A DNA stretch of 56,391 nt. It comes from Pseudoroseomonas ludipueritiae. Lineage in GTDB: Bacteria; Pseudomonadota; Alphaproteobacteria; Acetobacterales; Acetobacteraceae. Below the pieces are notes generated by a model, which saw only the letters and a list, made by a program, of their open reading frames with translations, searched no databases and had not been told where the DNA came from. The position numbers and the translations under genes are program-made. Of this stretch, positions 6,011 to 37,602 are shown one piece after another (positions within the stretch are counted from its first letter, which is position 1; the number at the start of each line of letters is the position of its first letter). Location of the stretch: assembly GCF_014490445.1 (NCBI RefSeq), contig NZ_JACTUZ010000015.1, forward strand, positions 1 to 56,391. The letters are read 5' to 3'.

Positions 6011-6055
6011 ACCCTCGCCTAGTCCATTCGCGCCTGTCCGATCCGCACGGCCGGG

Positions 6056-14577: not shown

Positions 14578-14593
14578 CAAGCTCAGTTCCTGT

Positions 14594-15988: not shown

Positions 15989-15998
15989 GGGGTGTCCC

Positions 15999-17168: not shown

Positions 17169-17198
17169 CGTGGGCGTATCCTAGCCAGTGATGCGACC

Positions 17199-17220
17199 GG
17201 GGCGGGGTTGTGCCCGCCCC
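17199..17220 (-). terminator. Hairpin after the LivJ-type receptor
   Basis: Perfect 8-bp stem GGGGCGGG (17199-17206) with CCCGCCCC (17213-17220), loop GTTGTG. It lies between the receptor stop at 17229 and the CaiB start at 17168 on the minus strand. It could attenuate or end transcription after the receptor gene. Confidence 0.5.
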
Positions 17221-17228
17221 CGCGCTGT

Positions 17229-18563: not shown

Positions 18564-18632
18564 GGAAGGTCCTCCAGGACGGCGGCCGCTTGAGCGGCTC
18601 TGCGTGAAGACTGGCACCGATTATCCCATCGG

Positions 18633-21010: not shown

Positions 21011-21945
21011 GCCGCTTTCCTCCGGCGCAGGCCCTGGACCATGCCGACCAGCCCACCGGGCGCGAAGAGGATGACCAGCAGCAGCACCGCCCCCAGGATC
21101 AGCTGCCAGGCATCGGCCAGGTTGGCGGCGGCATAGACCCGCGTCAGCTCATAGACCACGGCGCCCAGGAAGGCCCCCAGCACGCTGCCCGCGCCGCCGA
21201 GGATGGCGATGAAGACCAACTCGCCCGACGCCGTCCAATAGGCTAGGGCCGGCGTGACATGGCGGCTGGTCAGCGCGATCAGGCTGCCGCCGCAACCCGC
21301 CATCAGGGCCGAGAGCACATAGGCGGAAAGCAGCACGTAGCGGGCCGGCACGCCCATGAACTCCAGCCGTGCCTCCCGCGTCTTCACGCCGGCCAGGGCT
21401 TGTCCCAGCGGGGCCGCCAGATAGATGCGGATAAAGATGGCAAAGGCCACCGCCAGCAGCAGCGCCAGCGTGAAGACCGCCCAGTCATAGGAGGCGCCGG
21501 TGAGTTCCATGCCCAGGAAGGTCGGCATCGGCAGGCGGATGCCGTCCGTGCCATGCGTGATGGTGTAAAGCTTCTCCAGCAGCGAATAGAAGACCATGCT
21601 GAGCGCGAGGTTCAGCATGCCGAAGAAGATCTCGCGGTAGCGCATCACGAAAAGGCCGATGACCAGCCCGGCCGCCGCTGAGATCAGCGCCGCCATGGGC
21701 AGCAGCAGCAGCGCCTCCCGCATCTGCGGTGCCACGAAGGCCACCGAATAGGCGGCGATGGCGACATACATGGCATGGCCGAAGCTGACCTGTCCGGCGC
21801 GCAGCAACAGCAGGATGCCCAGCACCGTGATGCCCTTGGCCAGGGCGATGGTCAGCACGAAGCGCAGCCAGGGCGCGGCCCAGGCCAGCAGCACCAGCAA
21901 GGCCGCACCCAGGATGGCGGCGAGGATCTCCAGGCGGCCTGTCAT
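21007..21945 (-). CDS. livM: Branched-chain-type ABC transporter permease LivM
   Basis: 312-residue inner-membrane protein with about nine hydrophobic segments. Characteristic motifs are RAGQVSFGHAMYVAIAAYSV near residue 49, the QALAGVKTREARLEFMGVPA loop near 188 and YWTASGELVFIAILGGAGSV near 243, followed by LGAFLGAVVYEL. ATGA overlap with livH and 4-base overlap with livG indicate strict co-translation. Confidence 0.92.
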   Translation of the reverse strand: MTGRLEILAAILGAALLVLLAWAAPWLRFVLTIALAKGITVLGILLLLRAGQVSFGHAMYVAIAAYSVAFVAPQMREALLLLPMAALISAAAGLVIGLFVMRYREIFFGMLNLALSMVFYSLLEKLYTITHGTDGIRLPMPTFLGMELTGASYDWAVFTLALLLAVAFAIFIRIYLAAPLGQALAGVKTREARLEFMGVPARYVLLSAYVLSALMAGCGGSLIALTSRHVTPALAYWTASGELVFIAILGGAGSVLGAFLGAVVYELTRVYAAANLADAWQLILGAVLLLVILFAPGGLVGMVQGLRRRKAA

Positions 21946-22877
21946 ATGCGCCGTGTCTCCGTCACGCCGAAGAGGCCCTGCGGCCGCACCAGCAGCACCA
22001 GCACCATGATGAGATAGGGGATCACCACCTCCAGCTCCGGCTCCAGATAGACGGCGATGGAGCGGCCGAGGCCGATCATCACGGCGGCGATGGCCGCGCC
22101 TTCGATCTGTCCCAGGCCGGCCGTTGCCACAACGGCGAAGGAGAGCACGATGGTGGAGGCCCCGACGCCCGGCACCATGGAGGTCATGGGCGAGGCCAGC
22201 GCACCGCCCAGTGCCGCGAGGGCGGCGCCGAAGGTGAAGGTCAGCATGGTGACCTTCGCGGCATCGATGCCCTGGGACGTAGCCGCTTCCCGGTCCGTGG
22301 TCACGGCCACGATCACACGGCCCGCCAGGGTGCGCCGCATGAACCAGGCCAGCCCGACCAGGGTCAGCAGCGCGACACCTGGCAGCACGTAAAGCTGATA
22401 GGCCGTATAGGGGATGACATCGGCCCCGAAAGGCACATCCACCGTGCCCAGCAGGCGCATCGGCATCTCATTGGAAACCGGCTGCACGCCCCAGATCAGC
22501 TTCTGCACATCTTCCAGAATCATGAACAGGGCAAAGGTCACCAGCAATTGCAGGACAGGCTCCTGCCGCTCGACCCGCTTCAGCAACACCCGCTCGATCA
22601 CCGGCCCCAGAATGGCGCCGACCAATGCCGCGGCGATCACCAGCGCCGGGTAGCAAAGCCAGGCCGGAAGCCCACGCGCGGATAGGAACAGCGTCAGGGA
22701 CGCCGCGCTATAGGCGCCGATCGCGTATAGGCTTCCATGGGCCACGTTCAGGACGCGCAGAACCCCGAAGACAAGGTTCAATCCAACGGCGACCATGAAG
22801 ATGGAGGCGGCAGAAGCAAGGCCGTCCAGGACAGCCAGGCCGAGCAGCAAGCCGTTATCAGAGAGCCACGCCATCAT
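21942..22877 (-). CDS. livH: Branched-chain-type ABC transporter permease LivH
   Basis: 311-residue inner-membrane permease. Hallmarks are VGLNLVFGVLRVLNVAHGSL (about residue 30), the GRVIVAVTTDREAATSQGID loop (about 185) and SFAVVATAGLGQIEGAAIAA (about 250). I place the start at the ATG at 22877, with CAGGAG 9 bases upstream, rather than the TTG six codons earlier that itself contains that ribosome-binding site. First gene of livHMGF. Confidence 0.9.
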   Translation of the reverse strand: MMAWLSDNGLLLGLAVLDGLASAASIFMVAVGLNLVFGVLRVLNVAHGSLYAIGAYSAASLTLFLSARGLPAWLCYPALVIAAALVGAILGPVIERVLLKRVERQEPVLQLLVTFALFMILEDVQKLIWGVQPVSNEMPMRLLGTVDVPFGADVIPYTAYQLYVLPGVALLTLVGLAWFMRRTLAGRVIVAVTTDREAATSQGIDAAKVTMLTFTFGAALAALGGALASPMTSMVPGVGASTIVLSFAVVATAGLGQIEGAAIAAVMIGLGRSIAVYLEPELEVVIPYLIMVLVLLVRPQGLFGVTETRRI

Positions 22878-23238
22878 CGTGCGGTACTCCTGCAAGCCAG
22901 AGGGGCTGGTACGGCGGCCACGCTACCTGCCGCGGGAGCAGCACCATGACCACGTGGCATGGCGTGGAGAAAGGTCAGGTGCCACCAGCGGAATCCGGAG
23001 AACCTCGGATCGCATGTCATCTCCCTCTGACACTTCCATCGTTTTGCTGGCACTCTTCCACGCGGGTATGGCGCCGTCAACTCATGAGGTGATCGGCGAA
23101 TCTCCTGGTAGTCAGATCTGGAACGCTGCCGCGGCCTGCTTAAGATCTCTAGGCATCAGCAGCGGCGGCGGCCATCATTCCATGAGGCGGCGAAGCCGCT
23201 CACGTCCAGGCTAGTCAATCATAAATGGAGGACACAGC
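22878..23238. other. Divergent intergenic region, livH / SDR
   Basis: About 360 bases without a supportable gene. It must hold promoters for livHMGF (minus) and the SDR-alcohol dehydrogenase pair (plus). The plus-strand gene has a strong GGAGGA at 23227-23232. No clear palindrome was found. Confidence 0.4.
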
Positions 23239-25606: not shown

Positions 25607-27745
25607 ATGGACGCATTGCCTCAGGCCGCAGCCGCGCCACCCAACCCCATGGACGCGCTTTCGGCGCTTTTCGCGCCCCGTTCGGTCGCCGTCATCGGCG
25701 CCTCGGCAGATGCGACGCGGATTGGCGGGCGGCCTATCGCTGCCATGTTGGAACGCGGCTATGCCGGCACCATCCTGCCGGTGAATCCCAACCGGGAAAC
25801 CGTTCAGGGACTGGCCGCCTACCCTTCCATCGCTGCTCTGCCCAGCGTGCCGGATGCCGCCATCATCGCCGTGCCTGCCGAAGCGGCAGAGGCGGCCGTC
25901 GCGGCTCTTGCTGAGCGCGGCACCCGGGCCGCCATCGTCTTCAGCGCGGGCTTCGCGGAGACCGGGGAGGCCGGGGCCACCGCGCAGGCCCGGCTGCTGG
26001 CGACGGCACGGCGGCATGGCATGCGCCTGCTGGGGCCGAACAGCCTCGGCCTGTTCAACACGGCACAAGGCTTCTACGGCACCTTCAGTACCTCGCTGGA
26101 ACGCGGCTACCCGGTGGCGGGCCCGATCGGCATCGCGAGCCAGTCCGGTGCCTATGGGATGCACCTCTTCAGCATGGCGCGTGAAGAAGGCATGGGGCTT
26201 TCCTGCTGCGTCACCACCGGCAACGAGGCGGATGTCAATGTCGGCGACCTGATCGGCTGGATGGCGCAGGACCCCAGCACCGAAGTCATCGCCGCCTATT
26301 CGGAAGGAATCCGCGACGCTCCCAGCTTCCTGGCGGCGTTGGAACTGGCGCGGCGGAACCGCAAGCCGGTCGTGATGATGAAGGTGGGCCGCAGCGAGAT
26401 CGGCAGTGCCGCCGCGCGGTCCCATACCGCCTCCATCGCCGGCGACGATGCCGTGACGGATGCCGTTCTGGCCGAGTTCGGCGTTGTGCGCGCCCGCACC
26501 ACGGAGGAACTGCTCGACATCGCGCGGCTTGCCACGAAGCGGATCTATCCCGCCGGCAATACGCTGGGCGTGCTGACGGTCAGCGGCGGCGCCGGCGTGC
26601 TGATCTCGGACGCCGCCCAGGCCGCAGGCCTCCCCATGCCTCCCATGCCTGAACCGGCACAGCAGGCACTGCGCGAGGCCCTGCCTTTCTGCGCACCGCA
26701 GAATCCGGTCGATTGCACCGCGCAGGTTCTGAACGACGTTTCCCTGGTCGGGCGCTTCGCCGATGCACTGGTGCGGGATGGTGGCTATGGTTCCATCCTC
26801 TGCTTCTTCACCCATGCGGGTGGCGCGCCCTCCATCGTGCCGCGCCTGAGGCAGGAACTGCGCGCCATGCGCGCCGCCTTCCCCGATCGGCTCTTCGTGC
26901 TCTCCGTCCTGGCCGACCCGCCTATCGTGCGCGACTTCGAGGCGGATGGCTTCGCCGTCTTCCCCGACCCTTCGCGCGCGGTAGTGGCCATCCAGGCCAT
27001 GGGACGGTTTGGCGATGCCTTTGCGGCCGCGCCCCAGGCGGCGCCACCTGCCCTGCCGCCCGTGGCACTGCCCCAGCAGACACCGAGCGAGGCAGAGGCC
27101 AAGCGCCTCCTGGCCGCGGCTGGCATTGAGGCCGCGCCGGAACGCACCTGCACGAGCGCCGAGGAAGCCGTGGCCGCCGCCGAGGCGCTTGGCTACCCGG
27201 TGGTCCTGAAGATTCTCTCACCTGATATCCTGCACAAATCCGAGATCGGCGGCGTGCTGCTGAACCTGACGGATGCGGCGGCGGTGCGCGATGGATTTGC
27301 GCTGCTGCGGGGGCGCGCGGCCTCGGCGGCGCCCCATGCGCGCATCGAGGGTGTGCTGGTCGCCAGGCAGCTCTCGGGCGGCGTGGAATGCATCCTCGGC
27401 GTGCACCGCGACCCTGTCTTCGGCCCCGTCGCCATGTTCGGGCTGGGCGGGATCTTCGTCGAGGTGCTGAAGGACGTTGCCTTCCGCCGTTGCCCCTTCG
27501 GGGAGGATGCGGCGGAGGCCATGATCCGCTCCATCCGCGGCGCGCCTGTCCTGCTGGGCGCAAGGGGCCGGCCAGCGGCGGATATCCCCGCCCTCGCCCG
27601 CATGCTGTCGCGGCTTTCAGTCTTCGCCGCGCAGGCCGGGCCGCGTTTGGCGGGCATCGACCTCAACCCCGTTTTCGCGATGCCGGAAGGCCAGGGCGCC
27701 TTCGCGGCGGATGCCGTGATCGACATCGCGGAGGAACCGGCGTGA
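25607..27745 (+). CDS. ADP-forming acyl-CoA synthetase (acetate-CoA ligase family, fused alpha-beta)
   Basis: 712 residues, the usual length for fused NDP-forming acyl-CoA ligases. It has an N-terminal CoA-binding Rossmann domain (RSVAVIGASADATRIGGRPI, residues 25-44), then succinyl-CoA-ligase-like domains (GIASQSGAYGMHLFSMAREE near 177). The phosphohistidine candidate is H276 in ARSHTASIAGDDAV. The C-terminal ATP-grasp domain holds GYPVVLKILSPDILHKSEIG near 530. It converts an acid plus CoA and ATP to acyl-CoA, ADP and phosphate. AGGACAGGA precedes the ATG. Its stop overlaps the GTG of the hydratase gene, so it begins a tightly coupled operon and is the likely activating enzyme. Confidence 0.88.
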   Translation: MDALPQAAAAPPNPMDALSALFAPRSVAVIGASADATRIGGRPIAAMLERGYAGTILPVNPNRETVQGLAAYPSIAALPSVPDAAIIAVPAEAAEAAVAALAERGTRAAIVFSAGFAETGEAGATAQARLLATARRHGMRLLGPNSLGLFNTAQGFYGTFSTSLERGYPVAGPIGIASQSGAYGMHLFSMAREEGMGLSCCVTTGNEADVNVGDLIGWMAQDPSTEVIAAYSEGIRDAPSFLAALELARRNRKPVVMMKVGRSEIGSAAARSHTASIAGDDAVTDAVLAEFGVVRARTTEELLDIARLATKRIYPAGNTLGVLTVSGGAGVLISDAAQAAGLPMPPMPEPAQQALREALPFCAPQNPVDCTAQVLNDVSLVGRFADALVRDGGYGSILCFFTHAGGAPSIVPRLRQELRAMRAAFPDRLFVLSVLADPPIVRDFEADGFAVFPDPSRAVVAIQAMGRFGDAFAAAPQAAPPALPPVALPQQTPSEAEAKRLLAAAGIEAAPERTCTSAEEAVAAAEALGYPVVLKILSPDILHKSEIGGVLLNLTDAAAVRDGFALLRGRAASAAPHARIEGVLVARQLSGGVECILGVHRDPVFGPVAMFGLGGIFVEVLKDVAFRRCPFGEDAAEAMIRSIRGAPVLLGARGRPAADIPALARMLSRLSVFAAQAGPRLAGIDLNPVFAMPEGQGAFAADAVIDIAEEPA

Positions 27746-28587
27746 TCGATTACGAGACCCTCCGCCATTTTCCCATCCCGGAGGTCCGGCAACGCGTAAC
27801 GCCCCGCGACGCCGTCTTCTATGCCCTTTCAGTTGGGCTGGGCCAGGACCCGCTGGACGAGCGGCAACTCGACTTCGTTGATCCCCGCCGCCCGCTGCGC
27901 GCGCTGCCCTCCATGGCCCTCGTGCTGGGGTACCCGGGCTTCTGGCTGGGCAATCCGGCCACGGGGGTCGATGCCGTGCGGATCGTGCATGGGGAACAGT
28001 CATTGACGTTGCATCATCCTTTGCCGGTCCAGGGCGAGATCATCGCCCGGACCCGCGTCACCGGGCTGGTGGACAAAGGCGACGGCAAGGGGGCGCTGCT
28101 TTATTCCGAGAAAGAACTGCGGGATGCGAATGGCACGCTGCTGGCGGTGACCGGCAGCACCACCTTCCTGCGCGGGGATGGCGGCTTCGGCGGCCCGTCC
28201 GGCCCGGTGAAGCCCCCCAATCCTATGCCGGAGACACCGCCGGACACCGTCGTGGACCTGCCCACGCGGCCGGAACAGGCGCTTTATTACCGCCTGAACG
28301 GCGATGACAATCCGCTGCATGCCGACCCCGCCGTGGCGGCGAAGGCAGGCTTCCCGCGCCCCATCCTGCACGGGCTCTGCACGCTCGGCGTGGTGGCGCA
28401 TGCCCTGCTGCGGGTTCTGGGACGTTACGAGGCACTTTCGATGAAGAACCTCTCCCTGCGCTTCTCCGCACCGGTCTACCCAGGCGAGACCATCCGCACC
28501 GAGATCTGGCGCAACGGCGCCTTCCGTGCTCGCGTGGTGGAACGCGACGTGGTGGTGGTGAACAACGGCGCGGCGGTCTTCGCATGA
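27742..28587 (+). CDS. MaoC-type (R)-specific enoyl-CoA hydratase (hydratase-2/MFE-2 like)
   Basis: 281 residues, two hot-dog folds. The N-terminal fold carries RDAVFYALSVGLGQDPLDER and the C-terminal fold has the full hydratase-2 motif YYRLNGDDNPLHADPAVAAK followed by FPRPILHGLCTLGVVAHALL. The active-site Asp/His pair is in GDDNPLH. Such enzymes add water to 2-trans-enoyl-CoA to give the (R)-3-hydroxy product, as in peroxisomal multifunctional enzyme 2. The GTG start at 27742 overlaps the ligase TGA (GTGA) and has GGAGG upstream. The stop overlaps the next ATG by 4 bases. Likely partner for the (R)-type SDR at 33452. Confidence 0.88.
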   Translation: MIDYETLRHFPIPEVRQRVTPRDAVFYALSVGLGQDPLDERQLDFVDPRRPLRALPSMALVLGYPGFWLGNPATGVDAVRIVHGEQSLTLHHPLPVQGEIIARTRVTGLVDKGDGKGALLYSEKELRDANGTLLAVTGSTTFLRGDGGFGGPSGPVKPPNPMPETPPDTVVDLPTRPEQALYYRLNGDDNPLHADPAVAAKAGFPRPILHGLCTLGVVAHALLRVLGRYEALSMKNLSLRFSAPVYPGETIRTEIWRNGAFRARVVERDVVVVNNGAAVFA

Positions 28588-29660
28588 GCGCCGACATGCA
28601 GCAGGATCTGGAGGATCGGGCGGAATCCATCCGCATGATCCGTGACAGCGCCGCAGGCATCGCATCGCGCGGCGGCGACCGTCGCCGGGTGCGCGACCTG
28701 CGCTTTCGGAAGCCGGGCTACGACCCCGCCGTGCTGCGGCAGATGGGTGAGCAGGGCTGGATCGGCCTGCGGGTGCCGGAGGCCCTGGGCGGCGCGGGCC
28801 TTGGACTGCGGGAATTCTGCGCCCTGGCCGAGGAACTGGGCGCAGCCCTGGCGCCGGAACCGCTGATCCCCGCCGCGCTCTCCGCGGCGCTCCTGGCAGC
28901 CGCGGGCGCGCAAGAGCCGCTGCAGCGGCTGCTCTCCGGCGAGGAGCTGCTGCTCACCGCCTGGCAGGAAGCGCCCGCGAGGCTGGAGGCGCCGGGGAGT
29001 GCCACGGCGCCGCGCCTGTTCATTCCCGCCGCCAGCGGGGCGGCTGCCTTCCTGGTGCCGGTGGCGCAGAATGGCCGGATGGCGCTGCGTGTGCAGCAGG
29101 GCAAGGCCGCCTTGGCGCTGGATGGAAGCCAGGACGGCGGCTTCCTTGGCACGCTGCAACCTGGTGATGGGCAATTGATCGCCGCCGATATCGGTTCGGC
29201 CCTGCAGGATGCATTGGATGAGGCTGCCCTGGCCACCGCTGCCTATCTGCTCGGTGTCATGGACCAGGCCTTCGCCCTGACCCTGGATTACCTCCGTACG
29301 CGCCAGCAGTTCGGCCGGCCGATTGGCGGCTTCCAGGCCCTGCAACATCGGGCGGCGGACCTGAAGATCCAGGTGGCGCTGACACGTGCCAGCATCGAAG
29401 CCGCGGCGGCATTGCTGGACAGGGGCGATGCACCGCCCGCCGCACGCCGCGCCGCAGTCTCGCGTGCCAAGGCCCGCGCCGCCGAGGCTTCCCTGCTGGT
29501 GACGCGGCAGGCCATCCAGTTCCATGGCGGCATTGGCTACACGGACGAGGCGGATATCGGCCTTCACCTGCGCAAGGCCATGGTGCTGGCCAGCGCCTTC
29601 GGCTCCGCCGCCTTCCACCGCCGCCGCTTTGCCGCCGAGGCCCGGGAGGACGAGGCATGA
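28584..29660 (+). CDS. Acyl-CoA dehydrogenase subunit, FadE-like (half-site subunit A)
   Basis: 358 residues, shorter than a standard acyl-CoA dehydrogenase. It has the N-terminal helical domain (LRQMGEQGWIGLRVPEALGG) and the C-terminal flavin segments YLRTRQQFGRPIGGFQALQH near 232 and QFHGGIGYTDEADIGLHLRK near 312. It lacks the middle-domain EPxAGSD loop and the C-terminal YGGSSEIQ-type segment. Those missing pieces are present in the next gene. This complementarity matches alpha2-beta2 heterotetrameric acyl-CoA dehydrogenases of steroid side-chain catabolism (ChsE1-ChsE2 type). ATGA overlaps on both sides imply equal production of the two subunits. Confidence 0.85.
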   Translation: MSADMQQDLEDRAESIRMIRDSAAGIASRGGDRRRVRDLRFRKPGYDPAVLRQMGEQGWIGLRVPEALGGAGLGLREFCALAEELGAALAPEPLIPAALSAALLAAAGAQEPLQRLLSGEELLLTAWQEAPARLEAPGSATAPRLFIPAASGAAAFLVPVAQNGRMALRVQQGKAALALDGSQDGGFLGTLQPGDGQLIAADIGSALQDALDEAALATAAYLLGVMDQAFALTLDYLRTRQQFGRPIGGFQALQHRAADLKIQVALTRASIEAAAALLDRGDAPPAARRAAVSRAKARAAEASLLVTRQAIQFHGGIGYTDEADIGLHLRKAMVLASAFGSAAFHRRRFAAEAREDEA

Positions 29661-30802
29661 TCGACCTGAACGCCCTGAGCGACGAGGATTTCCGCGCCGA
29701 GGTACGCCGCTTCGTGCAGCAGGAATATCCACCCGCGCTGCGTCATCCGCGCCATCGGCTTCACTGGGACCAGGGCCGCGCCTGGTTCGAGGCACTTCGC
29801 GCCAAGGGCTGGGTGGCGCCAGGATGGCCGCGTGAGTATGGCGGCATGGGGCTCGACGCTTCCAAGCAGATCATCCTGATCGAGGAATATGAGCGTCACG
29901 GCGTGGCGCGCCTGCCGGACCACGGCGTCATCATGCTGGGGCCGCTGCTGATCCGCTTCGGCACCGAGGCGCAGCGGCAACGTTTCCTGCCCAGGATCCT
30001 GGCCGGCCAGGATATCTGGTGCCAGGGCTATTCCGAGCCCAACGCGGGCTCCGACCTTGCCTCCCTCCGCACGGAGGCGGTGCTCGAGGGCGACCATTAC
30101 CTCGTCAACGGACAGAAGATCTGGACCACCCTCGCGACCGACGCAAACTGGATCTTCTGCCTCGTCCGCACCGACAAGACTGCGAAGAAGCAGGAGGGCA
30201 TCAGCTTTCTGCTGATCGATATGAAGAGCCCCGGCGTGACGGTGAGGCCGATCATCAACCTCGCCCTGCATGACGAATTCTGCGAGGTCTTCTTCGACAA
30301 TGTCCGCGTGCCCCGTGAGAACCTGGTCGGCGAGCCCAACAAGGGCTGGAGCATGGCGAAGGCCCTTCTGGGCTTCGAACGTATCTTCCTCGGCTCGCCC
30401 CGGCAGTCCGGCTATGCCCTGGCGCGGCTGAAGCTGCTGGCGGAGCGGATGGGCGTCTTCGAGGATGCCGACTTCCGGGACCGCTACACCCGGCTGCGCC
30501 TGGACCTGGAAGATCACAAGGCCCTGTACGAGACCTTCGTCGCCATGCTGCGGCGGGGTGAAACGCTGGGGCCCGACGTTTCCATGCTGAAGCTGCACCA
30601 GGCCGAGTTGTTCCAGCGCACCACGGACCTGATGCTCGACATCGCCGGCGAGAATGCCGGGCTGCTGGAACCCATGGGAGGCAACGGGGACCTGCATCCG
30701 GCCGGGCAGTTCATCGAGGCACGCCCGACCACGATCTATGGCGGCAGCTCGGAGATCCAACGCGGCATCCTGGCCAAGAACGTGCTGGAACTGCCCGGCT
30801 GA
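29657..30802 (+). CDS. Acyl-CoA dehydrogenase subunit, FadE-like (half-site subunit B)
   Basis: 381 residues. Strong middle-domain motif GYSEPNAGSDLASLRTEAVL near residue 122 and HYLVNGQKIWTTLATDANWI near 147. The C-terminal IYGGSSEIQRGILAKNVLEL is near 360. The arginine-rich FGRP...Q dimerisation motif and the QxHGGxG FAD motif seen in the preceding subunit are absent: the corresponding region reads MGGNGDLHPAGQ. Together the two proteins supply one full set of active-site elements. The catalytic-glutamate position of medium-chain enzymes is Gly here (YGG), so the base must lie elsewhere, as in several branched-chain and steroid dehydrogenases. Confidence 0.87.
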   Translation: MIDLNALSDEDFRAEVRRFVQQEYPPALRHPRHRLHWDQGRAWFEALRAKGWVAPGWPREYGGMGLDASKQIILIEEYERHGVARLPDHGVIMLGPLLIRFGTEAQRQRFLPRILAGQDIWCQGYSEPNAGSDLASLRTEAVLEGDHYLVNGQKIWTTLATDANWIFCLVRTDKTAKKQEGISFLLIDMKSPGVTVRPIINLALHDEFCEVFFDNVRVPRENLVGEPNKGWSMAKALLGFERIFLGSPRQSGYALARLKLLAERMGVFEDADFRDRYTRLRLDLEDHKALYETFVAMLRRGETLGPDVSMLKLHQAELFQRTTDLMLDIAGENAGLLEPMGGNGDLHPAGQFIEARPTTIYGGSSEIQRGILAKNVLELPG

Positions 30803-30853
30803 GAACAACACGGAAGCAGCCTGATCAAGGCCGCGCCGTCAGGAGGTCTCGGA

Positions 30854-31849
30854 ATGAAAGTGACAATGACGCGCCGCCTGCTGCTTGGCGCCACCATGGG
30901 AGTCTCACTACCGGCACTGGCACAGGGACCGGCTTGGCCAAGACGCAGCATCAAGCTGGTCATCCCCTTTCCACCCGGCGGCACCACGGACTTGATCGGG
31001 CGCCTGCTGGCTGAGAGGCTCTCCGCCAGGCTCGGGCAAACCGTGGTTGTGGAGAACCGGTCCGGCGCCGGCGGCAATATCGGCGCCGAGGTCGTCGCGA
31101 AAGCGGAACCGGATGGCTACAGCTTTCTCATGGCCTCCGTTGGTACGGCGGCCATCAACTACGGCGTCTATGGCGCACGGATGCCTTACAAGCCTCAGGA
31201 CTTGGCGCCGGTTGGCCTGGTGACAAGGGTGGCCAATGTCGTGCTGGCAGCGAACAACAGCGGCATCAAGGATGTTGCCGCATTGCTCGCCCGCGCGAAG
31301 GCGGCGCCGGGCAACCTCAACTACGGCACGGCCGGCATCGGCAGCAGCACGCATGCCTGTATGGAACTTTTCCAGGCGCTGACCGGGACGCAGTTGCAGC
31401 ACGTGCCTTATCGTGGCTCCGGCCCCATGCTGACGGAGGTGGTGGCCGGGCGCGTTCAACTTGGGTGCGACAACATCCCCACCGCGCTCAACTTCATCCG
31501 TGACGGGCAGATGCGCGCGCTGGCGGTGACAAGCGCCAGCCGCTCCTCAGTATTGCCGGACGTGCCTACCCTGCGCGAGGCTGGCGTGTCTGGCTTCGAC
31601 GCCACCTCCTGGTTCGGCGTGCAGGCGCCCGCGCGAACGCCGGAGGCAGTGATTGCCCGGACGGGTGAGGCCATCGACGCCATTGTTCAGGAGCCGGATT
31701 GGAACGCACGGATGCGGGATTTCGCCGCCGATCCGCCACGCCTGACCGCCGAGGGCGGCACCACGCCGACCGCCTTCGCCGCTTTCATCGCGGCGGAGAT
31801 CGCCCGTTGGGCCGAGGTGGCGCAGACCAGCCATATGACCGTGGAGTGA
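30854..31849 (+). CDS. Tripartite tricarboxylate transporter (Bug family) substrate-binding protein
   Basis: 331-residue periplasmic receptor. The signal peptide ends at about residue 23 (MTRRLLLGATMGVSLPALAQ). Family motifs: WPRRSIKLVIPFPPGGTTDL near 28, LGQTVVVENRSGAGGNIGAE near 62, AKAEPDGYSFLMAS near 85 and HVPYRGSGPMLTEVVAGRVQ near 181. AGGAGG stands 7 bases before the ATG. It sits inside the catabolic operon between the dehydrogenase pair and the thiolase-like gene. That suggests its ligand is the pathway substrate, but no TctA/TctB permease gene is nearby. Confidence 0.92.
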   Translation: MKVTMTRRLLLGATMGVSLPALAQGPAWPRRSIKLVIPFPPGGTTDLIGRLLAERLSARLGQTVVVENRSGAGGNIGAEVVAKAEPDGYSFLMASVGTAAINYGVYGARMPYKPQDLAPVGLVTRVANVVLAANNSGIKDVAALLARAKAAPGNLNYGTAGIGSSTHACMELFQALTGTQLQHVPYRGSGPMLTEVVAGRVQLGCDNIPTALNFIRDGQMRALAVTSASRSSVLPDVPTLREAGVSGFDATSWFGVQAPARTPEAVIARTGEAIDAIVQEPDWNARMRDFAADPPRLTAEGGTTPTAFAAFIAAEIARWAEVAQTSHMTVE

Positions 31850-31863
31850 CAGGGAGTGAAGCA

Positions 31864-33036
31864 TTGAGTATCCGAGGCAAGGCCTGCATCGTCGGGGCCT
31901 ACGAGCATCCGGCGCGCAAGGCCGAGGACAAGAGCACAGCCCAGTTGCATGCCGAGGTGGCGCTGGGCGCGCTACGCGATGCCGGGCTGACGCGCGCCGA
32001 TGTAGACGGCTATTTCTGTGCTGGCGATGCCCCGGGCATGGGGCCGCTCAGCATGGCGGATTACATCGGGCTCAACGGGCTGCGGCATGTCGATGCCACG
32101 GATGTTGGCGGCAGTTCCTATCTGCTGCATGTCAGCCACGCGGCGCAGGCAATCGCGCTGGGCCGCTGCAATGTCGCGCTGATCACCCTCGCAGGGCGCC
32201 CGCGCGCCGAAGGCGTGGCCACCGGCACGGCGCCTCGCGCCGGCAACCCTGCGCAGCCGGATGTGCAGTTCGAGTATCCCTACGGCGCCGCAATTGCGAA
32301 CATGTATGCCATGTGTGCCAAGCGCCACATGCACGAGTTCGGCACCACCAGCGAGCAGCTGGCCTGGATCAAGGTGGCGGCCAGTCACCACGCGCAGCAC
32401 AACGAACATGCAATGCTGCGCAAGGTGGTGACGGTGGAGGAGGTGGTGAACTCACCGTTGGTGGCCGACCCGCTGCACCGGCTGGACTGCTGCGTCATCA
32501 GCGATGGCGGCGGCGCGCTGGTGGTGACCCGGCCGGAGATCGCGCGCAGCCTGAAGCGGCCGGTGGTGACGGTGCGTGGCGCGGGCGAGGCCGTGAAGCA
32601 CCAGATGGGCGGCGAACTGGACCTGACTTATACCGGCGCCCGCTTTTCCGGCGCCCGTGCCTTCGAGGAAGCAGGCGTGACGCCGGCGGATATCAAGTAC
32701 GCCAGCATCTATGACAGCTTCACCATCACCGTGCTGCTGCAGTTGGAAGACCTCGGCTTCTGCGAAAAGGGCAAGGGCGGCGCCTTTGTGGCGGATGGCA
32801 ACCTGATCAGCGGCGTGGGCCGGCTGCCCTTCAATACCGATGGCGGCGGGCTCTGCAACAATCATCCGGCCAATCGTGGCGGCATCACCAAGGTGATCGA
32901 GGCGGTGCGGCAATTGCGGGGTGAGGCGCATCCGGCGGTGCAGGTGAAGAACTGCGACCTGGCGCTGGCACATGGTACGGGCGGCTCGCTCGGCACCCGC
33001 CATGGCAGCGCCACGCTGGTCCTGGAGAGGGGTTGA
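31864..33036 (+). CDS. Thiolase-fold protein lacking the thiolase cysteines (SCP-x/Ltp2-like, probable aldolase)
   Basis: 390 residues with the thiolase-superfamily layout (VDGYFCAGDAPGMGPLSMAD, AAQAIALGRCNVALI, ISDGGGALVVTRPE). The nucleophilic cysteine position reads DVGGSSYLLHV (about residues 80-90), and the C-terminal CxGxG is replaced by AHGTGGSLG (H370). The GHP histidine survives as NNHP (H334). True thiolysis is therefore unlikely. Loss of the cysteines is known in Ltp2-type retro-aldolases that pair with DUF35 proteins, and a DUF35 gene follows 4 bases later. I place the start at TTG 31864 with AGGGAG 7 bases upstream; a GTG at 31846 overlapping the Bug stop is the alternative. Confidence 0.82.
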   Translation: MSIRGKACIVGAYEHPARKAEDKSTAQLHAEVALGALRDAGLTRADVDGYFCAGDAPGMGPLSMADYIGLNGLRHVDATDVGGSSYLLHVSHAAQAIALGRCNVALITLAGRPRAEGVATGTAPRAGNPAQPDVQFEYPYGAAIANMYAMCAKRHMHEFGTTSEQLAWIKVAASHHAQHNEHAMLRKVVTVEEVVNSPLVADPLHRLDCCVISDGGGALVVTRPEIARSLKRPVVTVRGAGEAVKHQMGGELDLTYTGARFSGARAFEEAGVTPADIKYASIYDSFTITVLLQLEDLGFCEKGKGGAFVADGNLISGVGRLPFNTDGGGLCNNHPANRGGITKVIEAVRQLRGEAHPAVQVKNCDLALAHGTGGSLGTRHGSATLVLERG

Positions 33037-33040
33037 AGCC

Positions 33041-33436
33041 ATGAGCCAACAAGCTGCGCAGCGCGTGCCGCCCTCCCCCGTGCCGGACCCCTCGACCCGC
33101 GCCTTTTGGGATGCAGCACGGGAGGGAAAGCTGCTGATCGGCCGCAACAGCCGCACAGGGCGCGTGCATTACCCGCCCCGTCCTGTCTGCCCCTTCGATG
33201 ATGAGGGTGAGGTGGAATACGTCCCAGCCAGCGGCAAGGGCACGATCTACAGCTTCAGCATCATGCGGGCCAAGACGCCCTATGTGATCGCCTACGTGGA
33301 ATTGGCTGAGGGACCACGCATCATGACCAATATCGTCCGTTGCGACATGGCGGCGCTGCAGGTCGGCCAACCCGTGCGCCTGACCTTCGTGGACAGCGAA
33401 GGCGGACAACCCATCCCGATGTTCACCCCTGCCTGA
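33041..33436 (+). CDS. DUF35 (OB-fold, Zn-ribbon-type) partner protein
   Basis: 131 residues. The N-terminal helix and rubredoxin-like segment is DPSTRAFWDAAREGKLLIGR, followed by RVHYPPRPVCPFDDEGEVEY. The OB fold starts with GKGTIYSFSIMRAKTPYVIA. A normal zinc ribbon has two CxxC pairs. Here the first pair is NSRT and the second is CPFD, so only one cysteine remains and zinc binding is probably lost. DUF35 proteins act as obligate partners of thiolase-fold aldolases and acetyltransferases. The gene is 4 bases after the thiolase-like gene, which fits a heteromeric complex. Confidence 0.87.
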   Translation: MSQQAAQRVPPSPVPDPSTRAFWDAAREGKLLIGRNSRTGRVHYPPRPVCPFDDEGEVEYVPASGKGTIYSFSIMRAKTPYVIAYVELAEGPRIMTNIVRCDMAALQVGQPVRLTFVDSEGGQPIPMFTPA

Positions 33437-33451
33437 GGATTGTTCCACACC

Positions 33452-34366
33452 ATGTCCATGTTGGAAGGAAAGGTCGCGATCGTCACCGGCGCCGGCGGCG
33501 GCATCGGTCGGGAGATCGCATTGGCCATGGCGCTGGCAGGCGCGAAAGTGGTGGTCAACGATATCGGCGCCTCCCTCACCGGTATCGGGGAAACTTCCGC
33601 CACGCCGGGGGAGCAAACCAAGGCGATCATTGAGCAGCGCGGCGGCCAGGCCATCACGAATACCGATAGCGTGGCCGAATGGGAGAGTGCCCAACGCATC
33701 GTTGCCAGCGCCATCGAGGCCTTCGGGCGGGTGGATATCGTGGTCAACAACGCGGGTATCCTGCGTGACCAGATCTTTCACAAGATGACGCCGGAGGAAT
33801 GGCGTGCCGTTATCGACGTGCACCTGAACGGCAGCTTCTATATGTCTCGCGCGGCGGCAGGCCATTTCCGCGCACAGGGCTCGGGCGCCTATGTGCATAT
33901 GACCTCCACTTCTGGCCTGATCGGCAATACCGGGCAAGCTAACTACTCCGCCGCCAAGCTGGGAGTTGCGGCGCTGTCCAAATCCATCGCGCTGGACATG
34001 CACCGCTTCGGCGTGCGGTCCAACTGCATCGCGCCTTTCGCCTGGAGCCGCATGACCAGCTCCATTCCGGCGGAAACGCCGGAGCAGAAGGCACGGGTGG
34101 AGAAGCTGAAGCAGATGACACCCGAGAAGAACGCGCCGCTGGCCGTCTTTCTGGCCAGTGACGCCGCGAAGGACGTAAACGGCCAGATCTTCGCTGCACG
34201 CAACAACGAGATATTTGTCTTCAGCCAGCCGCGCCCGCTCCGCAGCACTCATCGCGGTGAAGGCTGGACACCGGAGCTGATTGGGGAGCAGGCTATGCCA
34301 GCCCTGCGCGCGCAGTTCCTGCCGCTGGATCGCAGCCCGGACGTGTTCTCCTGGGACCCGGTCTAG
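33452..34366 (+). CDS. SDR family 3-hydroxyacyl-CoA dehydrogenase, 17beta-HSD4/MFE-2 N-domain like
   Basis: 304 residues. Cofactor motif VTGAGGGIGREIALAM near residue 11, D36 of VVVNDIGAS for NAD, NNAGILRDQIFHKM near 95, catalytic Ser in TSTSGLIG near 150 and YxxxK in NYSAAKLGVA near 163. The NDIG and NNAGILRD patterns are typical of the (R)-3-hydroxyacyl-CoA dehydrogenase domain of multifunctional enzyme 2. This matches the (R)-hydratase encoded at 27742. Start at ATG 33452, with GAGGA 12 bases upstream; a TTG four codons earlier is in frame but too close to that site. Follows the DUF35 gene by 15 bases. Confidence 0.87.
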   Translation: MSMLEGKVAIVTGAGGGIGREIALAMALAGAKVVVNDIGASLTGIGETSATPGEQTKAIIEQRGGQAITNTDSVAEWESAQRIVASAIEAFGRVDIVVNNAGILRDQIFHKMTPEEWRAVIDVHLNGSFYMSRAAAGHFRAQGSGAYVHMTSTSGLIGNTGQANYSAAKLGVAALSKSIALDMHRFGVRSNCIAPFAWSRMTSSIPAETPEQKARVEKLKQMTPEKNAPLAVFLASDAAKDVNGQIFAARNNEIFVFSQPRPLRSTHRGEGWTPELIGEQAMPALRAQFLPLDRSPDVFSWDPV

Positions 34367-34441
34367 TTCATTCCTGAGGCGGGGATGCATGGCGGGGGAG
34401 CTTCGGGCCCAGAACAACAACAATACGGGGAACAAACAGGA

Positions 34442-35659
34442 ATGTTCGGACGCAGAGTGCTTCTGGCCGGTGCGGCTGTCGCGCCATTCGGCCTCCGCCG
34501 GGCACGGGCCCAGGTCCGGCCTATCCGCCTGGGCGTGCTCGGCGATTTTTCCGGGCCCTACCGGCATCTGTCCGGCCCCACCGCCGTCGCCTGCGTGAAG
34601 CAGGCGGTGGAGGATTCAGGCATTCTCCAGAAGGGCATCGCGGTCGAGGTCATTCAGGCCGACCATCAGCAGAAGGCGGATGCGGGGCTGGCCACGGCGC
34701 GCGAATGGTTCGACCGCGGCGGCGTCGATGTGGTGCTGGAGGTCAATAACTCCTCCATCGCGCTCGCCTTGAACGCATTGGTGCGGGAGAAGGACAAGAT
34801 CCATCTCAATACCGGCGCGGCCACCTCGGAATTGACAGCCAAGGCCTGTAGTCCCAACACCATCCAGTGGACCTACGACACCTATATGCTCGCCCGCTCC
34901 TCCGGAGTGGCCACGGTGCAGGCAGGGGCCGGCACTTTCTTCATCATTGCCGCCGACATGGCTTTCGGCCACCAGATGGAGCGCGACGTCACGAGGTTCG
35001 TGGAAGCCGGGGGCGGCAAGGTGGTCGGCTCCCTGCGCCACCCCTTCCCAGGCACGACGGACTTCTCCTCCATGCTGGTCCAGGCGCAGCGCAGCCGGGC
35101 CAAGGTTGTCGCCTTTGCCAATGCAGGAACGGATTTCATCAACTGTGTGAAGCAGGCTCACGAATTTGGCTTGGTGGCACGGGGGCAGAAGCTGCTGGGC
35201 ACCATTGCCTTCGTCAACGATGTTAAGTCGCTGGGGCTGGAAACGACCAAGGGCCTGTTGCTGACCGAGAGCTTCTACTGGGACCTCAATGACCGCACCC
35301 GTGCCTTCACCAAGCGCGTGCTGCCGAAGACGCCGGACAATTATCCCAACCAGACCCATGCCGGAAATTATTCGGCTGTCATCCACTACCTCAAGGCCGT
35401 GTCGGAAGTGGGCGCGGCGCGGGCTAAGGCGTCCGGGCGCGAGGTGATCGAGGTGATGCGCCGCATGCCCACGGATGACGATGCCTTTGGTGCCGGCAGC
35501 ATCCGTGTGGATGGACGGCATCTGCATGACGTGCATCTCTTCGAGGCCAAGGCACCCGCGGAATCCACCCATCCCTGGGACCTGCTGAAGCTCGTACGGA
35601 CTACGCCGGCAGCCGAGGCCTTCCGCCCCCTCTCGGAAGGCGGCTGTTCCCTGGCTTGA
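34442..35659 (+). CDS. Branched-chain-amino-acid-type (LivJ) ABC substrate-binding protein
   Basis: 405 residues. Tat-like leader (FGRRVLLAGAAVAPFGLRRA, then RAQ). Motifs: IRLGVLGDFSGPYRHLSGPT near residue 27, ADHQQKADAGLATAREWFDR near 75, AADMAFGHQMERDVTRFVEA near 170 and HPFPGTTDFSSMLVQAQRSR near 200. ATG 34442 gives a conventional leader; an in-frame ATG at 34385 adds 19 polar residues and has its own GAGG, so the start is not certain. It is a second Liv-type receptor without adjacent permeases and could share livHMGF at 19591-22877. Confidence 0.88.
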   Translation: MFGRRVLLAGAAVAPFGLRRARAQVRPIRLGVLGDFSGPYRHLSGPTAVACVKQAVEDSGILQKGIAVEVIQADHQQKADAGLATAREWFDRGGVDVVLEVNNSSIALALNALVREKDKIHLNTGAATSELTAKACSPNTIQWTYDTYMLARSSGVATVQAGAGTFFIIAADMAFGHQMERDVTRFVEAGGGKVVGSLRHPFPGTTDFSSMLVQAQRSRAKVVAFANAGTDFINCVKQAHEFGLVARGQKLLGTIAFVNDVKSLGLETTKGLLLTESFYWDLNDRTRAFTKRVLPKTPDNYPNQTHAGNYSAVIHYLKAVSEVGAARAKASGREVIEVMRRMPTDDDAFGAGSIRVDGRHLHDVHLFEAKAPAESTHPWDLLKLVRTTPAAEAFRPLSEGGCSLA

Positions 35660-35702: not shown

Positions 35703-36704
35703 TCAGCCGATATCCATCCGCAGCCCCTCCTTCCGCACCACGCCGCCCCATTTCTCGATTTCGGCCCGCACGAAGGCGCTGTATTCGGCGGGCGTACCGT
35801 AAGTGGGCACGCCGCCCATCTCGGCGAAACGCCGCTGAGTCACCGGCAGTGACAGCAAGGCCTTGATCTCGGCGTTCAAGGCGTCGACCACCGGTTCTGG
35901 CGTGCCGGCAGGCAGGAAGGCGCCGAACCAGGTGCTGACATCGTACTCTGCCAGTTCCGGCATGGTCTCCCGTAGCGCGGGGAGCTCTGGCATCTGTGGA
36001 TTGCGGTCGGCGCTGGTGACGCCCAGCCCCCGCACCTGCCCTGCCCGAATCTGCTCGACGGAACTGGTCAGGTTGTCGAAGCCGAAATGCACGTCGCCCG
36101 CGACCATTCCCACCATGGCCGGCCCGGCGCCGCGATAATGCACTGCGGTGGCTTGCGTGCCGGTCAGCTGGTGGAACCATACGCCCGAGAGGTGCGGCGA
36201 CTGCCCTGGGCCGGACGTGCTGTAGTTCAGCTTTCCAGGATTTTCCTTCAGGTAGCGCACGAATTCGGGAACCGTGCGGACCGGCAGCGAGGGATGCAGC
36301 ATCAGGGCATTCGGGCCCCGGATCATGTTGGAGACCGGGATGAGTTGCTCCGGCTTGTAGGACAGGCCACGGAACAGGGAATAGGCGATGGCCTGCGGGC
36401 CTATATTCCCGATCAGGATGGTATGGCCATCTGGCTTGGCGCGGACCACCTCCGCCGCGCCCAGGGTTCCGCCGGCACCGGAGCGGTTGTCCACTACCAC
36501 GGGCTGGCCCCAGCGTTCCTGCAGAAAGGGTGCCAGTATCCGGCCCATGATGTCGGTGGTACCGCCGGCAGCGGCGGGCACGACGATGCGGATGGGCTGG
36601 CTAGGCCGCCATAGGCCCTGGCTGCGGGAGAGGCGGGGGGCCGCCAACCCGCCCATCAGCAAGGCGCCGCGCCATAACAGGACACGACGGTCAAATCGGG
36701 TCAT
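35703..36704 (-). CDS. Tripartite tricarboxylate transporter (Bug family) substrate-binding protein
   Basis: 333-residue periplasmic receptor. Leader DRRVLLWRGALLMGGLAAPR (residues 5-24). Motifs: WRPSQPIRIVVPAAAGGTTD near 32, WGQPVVVDNRSGAGGTLGAA near 65, VRAKPDGHTILIGN near 88 and VHYRGAGPAMVGMVAGDVHF near 185. AGGAGG lies 6 bases before the ATG. It is convergent with the catabolic operon and immediately downstream of iclR on the same strand. The operator-like repeats at 36778-36808 lie about 75-105 bases upstream of its start. Confidence 0.92.
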   Translation of the reverse strand: MTRFDRRVLLWRGALLMGGLAAPRLSRSQGLWRPSQPIRIVVPAAAGGTTDIMGRILAPFLQERWGQPVVVDNRSGAGGTLGAAEVVRAKPDGHTILIGNIGPQAIAYSLFRGLSYKPEQLIPVSNMIRGPNALMLHPSLPVRTVPEFVRYLKENPGKLNYSTSGPGQSPHLSGVWFHQLTGTQATAVHYRGAGPAMVGMVAGDVHFGFDNLTSSVEQIRAGQVRGLGVTSADRNPQMPELPALRETMPELAEYDVSTWFGAFLPAGTPEPVVDALNAEIKALLSLPVTQRRFAEMGGVPTYGTPAEYSAFVRAEIEKWGGVVRKEGLRMDIG

Positions 36705-36777: not shown

Positions 36778-36808
36778 CATTCCAAATCAGGAATGCTATT
36801 CAGCATTC
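36778..36808. promoter_or_regulatory. Clustered inverted repeats, candidate IclR operator upstream of the Bug gene
   Basis: Two overlapping dyads: CATTCC-N6-GGAATG (36778-36795) and GAATGCT-ATTC-AGCATTC (36791-36808). On the minus strand it contains GAATAGCATTCC, sharing GAATAGCATT with the site at 25481-25490. It overlaps the iclR stop codon and is upstream of the Bug receptor gene. The second dyad could also fold as a short hairpin after iclR, so a weak terminator is an alternative reading. Confidence 0.5.
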
Positions 36809-37602
36809 AGCAAAGGACGCGGAAAAAGCGCCTTACCTGTCAGCTCCGCCAGTTCCCGTAGCTCCGCCCCGAGCTGGGATGACAGCGCCGGATCGTATTG
36901 CGCCGTGATGGTGATGCCGCTGATGCCGAAGCGGGGCCTGCTCTCCTGGTCCTTCACCAGCGCCGCAATCGTGGTCAGCCCAAGGTAGAGATGACCGGAA
37001 TCGATGCTCCATCCACTCTCCTGGGCCTGTTGCACATCCGCCCAATAGTCCTCGAAACTCGGTGGAGACTGCCAGCGGAGAGCAGAGAAGCGCCGGCGAA
37101 GTTCCTCTTTCTCCAATGCCAGTGCCGCCGCCACGCAGCGCCCAACAGCGCCGACCAGCATGGGCAGCCGGATGCCGACGGCCATCTCGACCCGCACGGC
37201 TGCCGGACTATAGGCGCGGTCGATCAAGACGATGTGCCCGTCCTCCGTCACACGCCAGAGCACGATGATCATCTCGTACTTCAGGGCAAGCTGCTGCAAC
37301 TCGGGCCGGATGAGTTCGGCATGGCTCATTCCCAGCAGGCCCGCAGCCAGCTCGGCCACCGCGAGACCCAGCGCATAGGTCTTGTCCTTCTCGTGGAAGG
37401 AGACGTAGCGCGCCCGGGTCAGGGTCCGCAGGATGTTGAAGCAGGTGCTGACGCTGATCCCCGTGCCGCGCGCAATGGCTGCCACGCCCAGGGGCACGGT
37501 GGCAGTGGAGAGATAGCGCAGGATGCCGATGGCATGGACCACGGCGCCCACATCACGCTGGCCCGTCACTTTCTGGGGTGGAGGAGGAGAACGCTCGCCC
37601 AT
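36796..37602 (-). CDS. IclR family transcriptional regulator
   Basis: 268 residues. N-terminal winged helix-turn-helix, about residues 17-80 (GAVVHAIGILRYLSTATVPL, AIARGTGISVSTCFNILRTL). The GAF-like effector domain begins around residue 95 and has the family segments RVEMAVGIRLPMLVGAVGRC near 135 and GLTTIAALVKDQ near 200. GGAGGAGGA is inside the first codons' upstream region. IclR proteins often repress or activate catabolic operons for acids and aromatics. The shared word at 25481 and 36792 makes the acyl-CoA operon and the adjacent Bug gene the likeliest targets. Confidence 0.9.
   Translation of the reverse strand: MGERSPPPPQKVTGQRDVGAVVHAIGILRYLSTATVPLGVAAIARGTGISVSTCFNILRTLTRARYVSFHEKDKTYALGLAVAELAAGLLGMSHAELIRPELQQLALKYEMIIVLWRVTEDGHIVLIDRAYSPAAVRVEMAVGIRLPMLVGAVGRCVAAALALEKEELRRRFSALRWQSPPSFEDYWADVQQAQESGWSIDSGHLYLGLTTIAALVKDQESRPRFGISGITITAQYDPALSSQLGAELRELAELTGKALFPRPLLNAE

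Follow-up and report, generated by a model that had tools for sequence, protein, structure and literature searches.

Gene content and the thiolase-like protein

The window, i.e., the whole stretch of DNA that was analysed (56,391 nucleotides, positions 1 to 56,391 of contig NZ_JACTUZ010000015.1 of Pseudoroseomonas ludipueritiae, a genome of 5.35 Mb in 394 contigs), contains on its forward strand a tight run of nine genes (25607-35659). Among them are the genes of a thiolase-like protein devoid of catalytic cysteines and of a DUF35 protein, a pair in which an earlier reading of the sequence (the original prediction) had seen a possible retro-aldol system of steroid side-chain type. The acyl-CoA dehydrogenases are abbreviated ACAD and the short-chain dehydrogenase/reductase SDR.

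25607..27745, +: ADP-forming acyl-CoA ligase (CoA-binding, Succ-CoA ligase and ATP-grasp domains, Pfam/NCBIfam)
27742..28587, GTG start, +: (R)-specific enoyl-CoA hydratase, MFE-2 hydratase-2 type (Pfam; PDB relatives 3khp, 7mku, 1s9c; motif GDDNPLH)
28584..29660, +: small ACAD subunit (QFG present, GSD absent; PDB relatives)
29657..30802, +: large ACAD subunit (GSD and FER glutamate present, QFG absent; PDB relatives 4x28, 6wy9, 6wy8)
30854..31849, +: TctC/Bug-type periplasmic receptor (PF03401)
31864..33036 (TTG; longer frame from GTG 31846), +: Cys-less thiolase-like protein, NCBIfam PRK08142 type (NF006010, residues, trees, fold)
33041..33436, +: DUF35 (OB-fold) partner with decayed zinc ribbon (PF01796, PF12172; best solved relative 6ok1_B)
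33452..34366 (possible earlier start TTG 33440), +: MFE-2-type (3R)-hydroxyacyl-CoA dehydrogenase, the SDR (PDB relatives 2et6, 1zbq, 1gz6; PRK07791-like)
34385..35659, +: Liv-type periplasmic binding protein (PF13458)

The ligase, hydratase, small ACAD and large ACAD genes each overlap the next one by 4 bases. The following gaps are 51 bases (large ACAD to TctC receptor), 14 bases (TctC receptor to thiolase-like gene, counted from TTG 31864, the start preferred for this distance and since many relatives align from there), exactly 4 bases (thiolase-like gene to DUF35), 15 bases (DUF35 to SDR, from ATG 33452) and 18 bases (SDR to Liv-type binding protein). All the parts named by the original prediction lie where it had placed them, including the hydratase and the two ACADs upstream and the (R)-type SDR downstream; its spacing of 4 bases agrees with the measure and its ADP-forming ligase with the domains detected. 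The TctC-type receptor gene located between the ACAD and thiolase-like genes was not mentioned in it, nor were the bounds of the run, i.e., the ligase starting at 25607 and the Liv-type binding protein ending at 35659.

Residues of the thiolase-like protein are numbered from GTG 31846. The nucleophile position is occupied by Gly89, and HGTGG (from His376) is found at the site of the second-cysteine motif of thiolases, Cys-x-Gly-Gly-Gly; the absence of both catalytic cysteines is thus confirmed. The thiolase motif HDxF is replaced by Y289-D-S291-F, while the His of the thiolase GHP motif is kept as His340 (NHP, within N-T-D-G-G + NHP). With Gly89 and YDSF, the protein does not belong to the DUF35-dependent/SCP2-type thiolases (BbsAB, archaeal thiolase, SCP2 thiolase), characterized by a nucleophilic Cys and HDxF. 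Its score with NF006010 (NCBIfam PRK08142) is 738 bits for a cut-off of 462.

By sequence the closest solved structures are 4u4e (48% identity), then CtSal and TcLtp2 (37% each), with thiolases behind. The same order is repeated by a fold search with the AlphaFold2 (AF2) model (mean predicted local distance difference test, pLDDT, 77.2; predicted template modelling score, pTM, 0.84), i.e., 4u4e, 9myr (Sal-Shy(DUF35)) and 6ok1 (Ltp2-ChsH2(DUF35)) on top. TcLtp2 and CtSal are presented as characterised retro-aldolases in PMC12329534.

The relatives considered are the best 80 of at least 587, the best of those kept being from Pseudoroseomonas wenyumeiae (97% identity). An alignment of 84 rows (the 80 relatives, two other loci of the source genome, L002 and L003, and the window gene twice, from the window and from L001) contains Asp290, Phe292 and His340 in 84/84 rows, and Tyr289 and Ser291 in 83/84.

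Residue pairs, trees and partner proteins

A wider alignment of 119 rows comprises seven solved structures, the window protein, 12 of the 80 relatives, 19 sequences from other searches and 80 loci chosen by hand from the match list of a class-level genome search. Nucleophile Cys is paired with His at position 289 in 33/33 rows, and nucleophile Gly with Tyr in 84/84 rows. The two leftover rows are Ser/His (L003, source genome) and His with a gap (L095). Within the Tyr group, position 340 is His (60 rows), Tyr (19) or Gln (5), and position 291 is Ala (27), Ser (26), Cys (18), Asn (5), His (3), Asp (3) or Pro (2).

On a tree calculated without the active-site columns, the His group corresponds to one change, with a branch support of 78 in the quick tree, where the long Tyr row L251 sits at the base of the His group. 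In a 39-row tree, a 100/100 branch separates the 14 His rows (including L003 and L095) from all the others. The four solved Cys/His members (BbsB, 6esq, 7yvy and the SCP2 thiolase 6hsj) retain the nucleophile and HDxF. The Gly/Tyr side includes TcLtp2, CtSal and IpfD; these three do not form one group in the tree (three changes, the IpfD branch being long and its exact place unsure) and thus bracket that side. The putative retro-aldol assignment of the window protein is one of phylogenetic bracketing. Clustering with active thiolases or with non-catalytic families had been named by the original prediction as contrary evidence; the window protein is localized on the retro-aldolase side of the 100/100 branch and, in both trees, in neither the Ltp2 nor the Sal clade.

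A search of the source genome with the window protein (E ≤0.001) gives three superfamily members, none with Ltp2 or Sal motifs. One of them (L002, contig C257, 578-4128) encodes another thiolase-like protein of the Gly/Tyr type (43% identity), accompanied by a DUF35 containing four Cys; an ADP-forming ligase is located downstream, and two small upstream open reading frames resemble, by eye, single-hotdog hydratases. It is a possible second module, with a layout nearer to that of ChsH1-ChsH2. Another (L003, contig C168, 1474-2622, minus strand) is SCP2-thiolase-like, with HDAF and GHP and Ser at the nucleophilic Cys; the protein is perhaps inactive or altered.

The DUF35 partner is a separate protein of 131 amino acids. 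Its zinc positions are N36, T39, C50 and D53, i.e., three of the four Cys are gone. Over 81 rows (the window, L001, which is the same gene and is thus counted twice, L002, and 78 of the 80 relatives, L007 and L081 being dropped by the distance rule of the script) these positions read CCCC in 55, CTST in 14 and NTCD in 7; NTDD (L006), NTCS (L009), CSDS and NTCT occur in a single row each and L075 is unreadable. All seven relatives that possess the full operon (see below) belong to the group with reduced zinc cysteines. The DUF35 gene follows the thiolase-like gene on the same strand, at 147 bases at most (aligned ends), in 80/80 relatives, thus the pairing is not due to chance. Among newly fetched members, it is found beside 59/59 of the Gly/Tyr type vs. 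13/21 of the Cys/His type. The loss of the zinc ribbon, also seen in IpfE, suggests that the aldolase would need the DUF35 fold and not the metal.

The motifs QFG, GSD and FER, taken in their usual meaning for ACADs, are split in a complementary manner: the large subunit has GSD and the FER glutamate without QFG, the small one QFG without GSD, and the QFG/GSD split is identical in 7/7 operon relatives. The complementary subunits of the original prediction are upheld by this split, and the ACAD is probably a two-subunit enzyme of the alpha2-beta2 type. With the pimeloyl-CoA and IpdE2 models of NCBIfam both ACADs are far below the cut-offs and hence are not assigned to them. A paralogous ACAD operon of the source genome (L128) was set aside: it contains CaiB and crotonase genes and no thiolase-like match in 17 kb. 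The hydratase is a one-piece, double-domain MFE-2 hydratase-2 of 281 amino acids. The SDR scores best with NCBIfam PRK07791, below the cut-off, as do all four SDRs scanned from plasmid clusters.

Genomic context, proposed pathway and alternatives

Genes of the fetched loci were called from open frames, a third-codon-position GC (GC3) score and similarity, and not by a gene finder. The full set (ligase, hydratase, both ACADs, thiolase-like protein, DUF35 and SDR) is found in 7/80 relatives (L004, L005, L006, L008-L011). In stretches of about 7 kb, ACAD relatives are near 9/59 Gly/Tyr vs. 0/21 Cys/His members, and hydratase relatives near 4/59 vs. 0/21.

Matches on plasmids amount to 498 records, 46 at 60-80% identity and 452 below 60%. 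Fourteen plasmid loci, picked by hand for annotation and diversity from 40 listed of the 498 records, span Alpha- and Betaproteobacteria, Actinomycetota and two Haloarchaea. YDSF is present in 15/15 copies from the 14 records, and the DUF35 zinc positions are CCCC in 14/15, CSST being found in one (Phaeobacter). An SDR whose best window match is the window SDR (34-79%) lies near the pair in 8/14 loci, which is not the rate of a random sample, and three of the eight (34-36% identity) may be generic SDRs. In Variovorax boronicumulans (L282) the pair (72%) is accompanied by a MaoC protein, an SDR (60%), two ACADs, TctC receptors, an acyl-CoA ligase and an IclR gene; in Methylobacterium aquaticum (L285) a Liv-type binding protein (47%), a ligase (67%) and an SDR (80%) accompany the pair (76%).

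The copies on plasmids of Halomarina (L274) and Natrinema (L284) share 62-64% identity and all these motifs with the window protein, and point to a transfer between domains. The surroundings in Halomarina comprise ACADs, MmgE/PrpD, a zinc dehydrogenase and a Liv importer. On a plasmid of Delftia acidovorans (L280), the pair is found with ACADs, a ligase, a TctC receptor and a hydratase, and a Tn3-family transposase adjoins. In L285, a 507-amino-acid PRK08257-type «acetyl-CoA acetyltransferase» (4765-6288) was considered as a true thiolase for the SDR product and rejected: by eye it has no expected Cys and reads YSCF, and it is possibly another non-thiolase of the same cluster.

SDR relatives occur in 80/289 alphaproteobacterial genomes (E up to 1e-75). 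Forty SDR loci were picked by hand, with no fixed rule, from the upper part of the match list (stretches of 8.9-17 kb); a separate set of 17 loci was also picked by hand. Among the 40, the hydratase is present in 26, a Gly/Tyr pair in 11, and neither pair nor thiolase in 24, several loci ending at contig edges. In L317-L319, the ligase (64-66%), the hydratase (77-79%), the SDR (75-76%) and IclR (59-63%) are close to those of the window, while identity is only 41-42% and 38-39% for the pair, and 54% and 39-42% for the ACADs. Because these loci, the fullest counterpart seen outside the Roseomonas group, match well except at the pair, the window operon carries a different pair. L258 has the same pattern as L317-L319, with Liv-like genes alongside, and L349 and L350 have the window-type pair (71-72%) with SDR and hydratase. 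L134 (6071-13589), a related operon in a genome of the same family as the source genome, contains a ligase (64%), a hydratase (63%), and 3-oxoacid CoA-transferase and crotonase genes, with no match to the pair in 17 kb.

Around the run, the window contains the following genes.

35703..36704, -: second TctC-type receptor (label by sequence likeness; a homologue adjoins the operon in L004, L006 and L009)
36796..37602, -: IclR-type regulator (PF01614/PF09339; a 59-63% relative lies beside the module in L317-L319)
20240..22895, -: LivG, LivM and LivH-like genes of an ABC importer, divergent from the cluster (label by sequence and gene order)
19591-20490, open reading frame: LivF-like (label by sequence and gene order)

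LivM and LivH homologues also adjoin the operon in L004. Elsewhere in the window, a second catabolic run is found on the minus strand (13408-18617: ACAD, MmgE/PrpD, CaiB-type CoA-transferase, Liv-type binding protein), and 50251-52428 encodes a protein with an N,N-dimethylformamidase beta-subunit-like domain (PF20254).

Since the Gly/Tyr side holds TcLtp2, CtSal and IpfD, the best reading of this carboxylic-acid transport-plus-oxidation operon, with even chances of being right, is a retro-aldol cleavage by the Cys-less thiolase-like/DUF35 pair. The acid would be imported by Liv- and TctC-type receptors, activated by the ADP-forming ligase and desaturated by the two-subunit ACAD; the MFE-2-type hydratase would then hydrate the product to the (3R)-hydroxyacyl-CoA. 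The pair may cleave the carbon-carbon bond of the latter, leading to an aldehyde or ketone and a short acyl-CoA, with Tyr289 as the presumed base on the beta-hydroxyl and His340 (candidate acid) or Ser291 as the likely proton donor, in replacement of the second Tyr of Ltp2 or of the Cys of Sal. The SDR could oxidise the (3R)-hydroxyacyl-CoA in rounds with a secondary beta-carbon, or else process the released carbonyl, and the aldolase would act in the round in which a branch leads to an alcohol that is tertiary or cannot be oxidised for another reason. Gene content, residues, clade and linkage are those observed; activity, step order, the role of the SDR and the substrate are proposals.

Several points weigh against it: (i) the Cys/His-Gly/Tyr switch is a single split on the tree, i.e., the 119 rows represent one historical event and the residue dichotomy is, on these sequences, a clean clade marker and not 119 independent events, as the tree shows one change; (ii) pLDDT of the AF2 model is below 50 at 117-147 and 333-344, too weak around the active-site loops; (iii) 73 of the 80 closest relatives are without the operon, and in the 67-68 of them amenable to scoring a gene on the same strand lies at 150 bases or less downstream in 21/67 and upstream in 25/68, neighbours being counted by position only, without annotation, so that «stand-alone» is not implied; (iv) in the stretches of about 7 kb, SDR relatives are near 5/59 Gly/Tyr and also near 2/21 Cys/His members; (v) the SDR is a steady companion and would yield a 3-ketoacyl-CoA, which a retro-aldolase does not use; (vi) a Cys/His thiolase with DUF35 occurs in 5 of the 40 SDR loci, on the same strand within about 4 kb in L321, L330 and L338, about 3.5 kb off in L355 and on the other strand in L356; (vii) according to PMC12329534, replacement of Cys304 of CtSal by Ser abolishes activity, and the window protein has Ser there; (viii) in the same article, TbSLP (YDxF, no Cys) is credited only with a slow malonyl-CoA decarboxylase activity, and not with a proven aldolase activity; (ix) IpfD is termed a thiolase in the table and the discussion of PMC9195938, and its retro-aldolase role is an assignment.

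The steady SDR and the true thiolases beside hydratase and SDR in relatives fit a 3-ketoacyl-CoA pathway, and they are the weightiest evidence against the retro-aldol reading. The first alternative is an (R)-specific beta-oxidation modelled on the peroxisomal MFE-2/SCPx route and its chemistry, the 3-ketoacyl-CoA being cleaved by the Cys-less protein through attack of water or CoA without a covalent acyl-enzyme. The operon possesses both hydratase and SDR, and no other genes are as well conserved with regard to L317-L319 (75-79%), and the Cys/His thiolases just mentioned lie in the cluster or within about 6 kb. However, the nucleophile Cys is absent from 84/84 Gly/Tyr rows, two retro-aldolases, TcLtp2 and CtSal, are found on the same side, and the CtSal paper identifies Tyr302 as the base and puts forward that thiolysis is excluded by a Gly in place of the Cys (PMC12329534). 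This route is thus considered rather unlikely. As regards the original claim of retro-aldol cleavage rather than thiolysis, the location on the retro-aldolase side of the superfamily and the DUF35 gene speak for its first half; as a whole it is unproven, because of the MFE-2-type SDR and of the 5/40 loci with a Cys/His thiolase.

It is distinctly improbable that the pair condenses acyl-CoAs, i.e., an aldol-forming or other CoA-ester reaction, or merely binds them as a non-catalytic scaffold. Multi-component acyltransferases (PhlABC, CsATase) are indeed found among the superfamily matches and most of the 80 close relatives are without the catabolic operon, whereas the active-site residues are strictly conserved, the ligase, ACAD and hydratase genes point to catabolism and plasmid copies from other phyla are surrounded by similar genes.

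More broadly, the retro-aldol reading may be extended to a proposal that is possible but falls short of being probable: (i) the PRK08142 proteins would form a non-steroid clade of their own, made of retro-aldolases that depend on DUF35, and would act with the MFE-2-type hydratase and dehydrogenase in a pathway combining beta-oxidation and retro-aldol cleavage; (ii) the pair would be an exchangeable cartridge, its place being taken by the window-type pair, a distant Gly/Tyr pair or a true thiolase; (iii) the window-type pair would be spread by plasmids among Proteobacteria, Actinomycetota and Haloarchaea; (iv) Cys/His vs. Gly/Tyr would tell a thiolase from a lyase. Databases label such genes thiolase or acetyl-CoA acetyltransferase. 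Were the clade indeed a family of retro-aldolases, true thiolases and lyases could be told apart throughout the superfamily by two residues, many «thiolase» annotations could be corrected from the Cys/His or Gly/Tyr pair, chain shortening by retro-aldol cleavage would extend far beyond steroid catabolism, and a branched, alicyclic or aryl acid would be indicated as the substrate of the operon.

Comparison with known systems

With Ltp2-ChsH2(DUF35) (6ok1, Thermomonospora curvata), the window system shares the thiolase fold, Gly at the nucleophile position, YDxF and a DUF35 partner. The Ltp2 operon is comparable in that it also comprises two ACAD genes and the gene of a MaoC-type hydratase (PMC12502768). 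The Ltp2 system differs by 37% identity, YDHF/Tyr344 vs. YDSF/His340 and a separate clade; the YDHF with second catalytic Tyr, the MaoC-fused DUF35 (ChsH2) with two-protein hydratase and the grouping with TcLtp2 are not found for the window, where the DUF35 is separate and zinc-poor, the hydratase is in one piece, and SDR and ADP-forming ligase are added. Sal-Shy(DUF35) (9myr, Comamonas testosteroni) has in common the thiolase fold, the nucleophile Gly, the position of the Tyr base, DUF35 and an unusual zinc site, the ligands being lost in the window DUF35 and changed to Cys3His in the Sal system. It is also 37% identical, with YDCY/Gln352 vs. YDSF/His340 and a DUF35 fused to the hydratase; neither YDCY with its essential Cys and Gln352 nor a grouping with CtSal is observed for the window protein.

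The best solved relatives of the ACADs are 4x28, 6wy9 and 6wy8 for the large subunit, and 6wy8 chain A, then isovaleryl-CoA dehydrogenase 4kto, then 4x28 chain D for the small one; 4x28 and 6wy8/6wy9 are steroid ACADs. Ring-degradation genes were looked for with two steroid marker models, both weak tests. The extradiol model TIGR03213 has no match in the source genome (394 contigs), with sub-threshold matches in 5/14 control genomes. PRK12837, presumably a KstD-like model (the accession NF009474 was a guess), gives only far sub-threshold matches (best 76 bits for a cut-off of 675), and 11/14 control genomes also match. Ten of the other window genes were scanned, and none of these ten is a steroid ring gene. 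The lack of ring genes in the original prediction thus holds for these two models and ten genes. For the CoA-transferases of L134, an identity as steroid ring hydrolases like IpdAB was considered and abandoned, since family and PDB searches identify them as ordinary 3-oxoacid CoA-transferases.

The term «steroid-type» is not borne out: the protein is outside the Ltp2 and Sal clades, the hydratase and the DUF35 have another architecture, and the operon contains an MFE-2-type SDR in addition. In the strict sense, a steroid side-chain aldolase system of Ltp2 or Sal type is hardly credible, for the nearest ACAD structures, with their steroid role, and the nearness of the pair to Ltp2-ChsH2 and Sal-Shy are opposed by the clades, by YDSF/H vs. 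YDHF/Y and YDCY/Q, by the architecture of hydratase and DUF35 and by the results with the two marker models. Nothing found makes the window operon a steroid system.

IpfD-IpfE, located on pIBU218 by gene order and the published ipfE primer, is alike in its non-steroid substrate, its Gly/Tyr type and its stand-alone DUF35 with a zinc ribbon decayed by eye; its cluster also has a CoA ligase and a substrate-binding protein. In PMC9195938, the introduction states a retro-aldolase cleavage to propionyl-CoA and 4-isobutylcatechol in the ibuprofen pathway, an ipfD insertion is among the ibuprofen-negative mutants, and IpfD follows a ring dioxygenase and not ACAD and hydratase. It differs moreover by 34% identity, YDAF and Tyr at 340. 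On the same plasmid, a second pair (L359, 938-2502) is 58% identical to TcLtp2, with YDHF, near OB-fold, crotonase and CaiB genes.

The nearest solved protein, 4u4e («thiolase», Sphaerobacter thermophilus), has YDSF, the nucleophile Gly, His at 340 and HGTGG, and differs by its location in a neighbouring clade of the trees. The benzoylsuccinyl-CoA thiolase BbsAB, which acts at the end of a beta-oxidation route, is also made of a thiolase-fold subunit and a DUF35 subunit, but it has kept the nucleophilic Cys and HDAF and belongs to the Cys/His side of the tree. Among open-licence articles, judged by titles and abstract openings, none was found that treats the window clade as aldolases. Taken together, the window system may be regarded as a variant of the DUF35-dependent thiolase-fold aldolases, with its own clade, a zinc-poor partner and MFE-2-type helpers.

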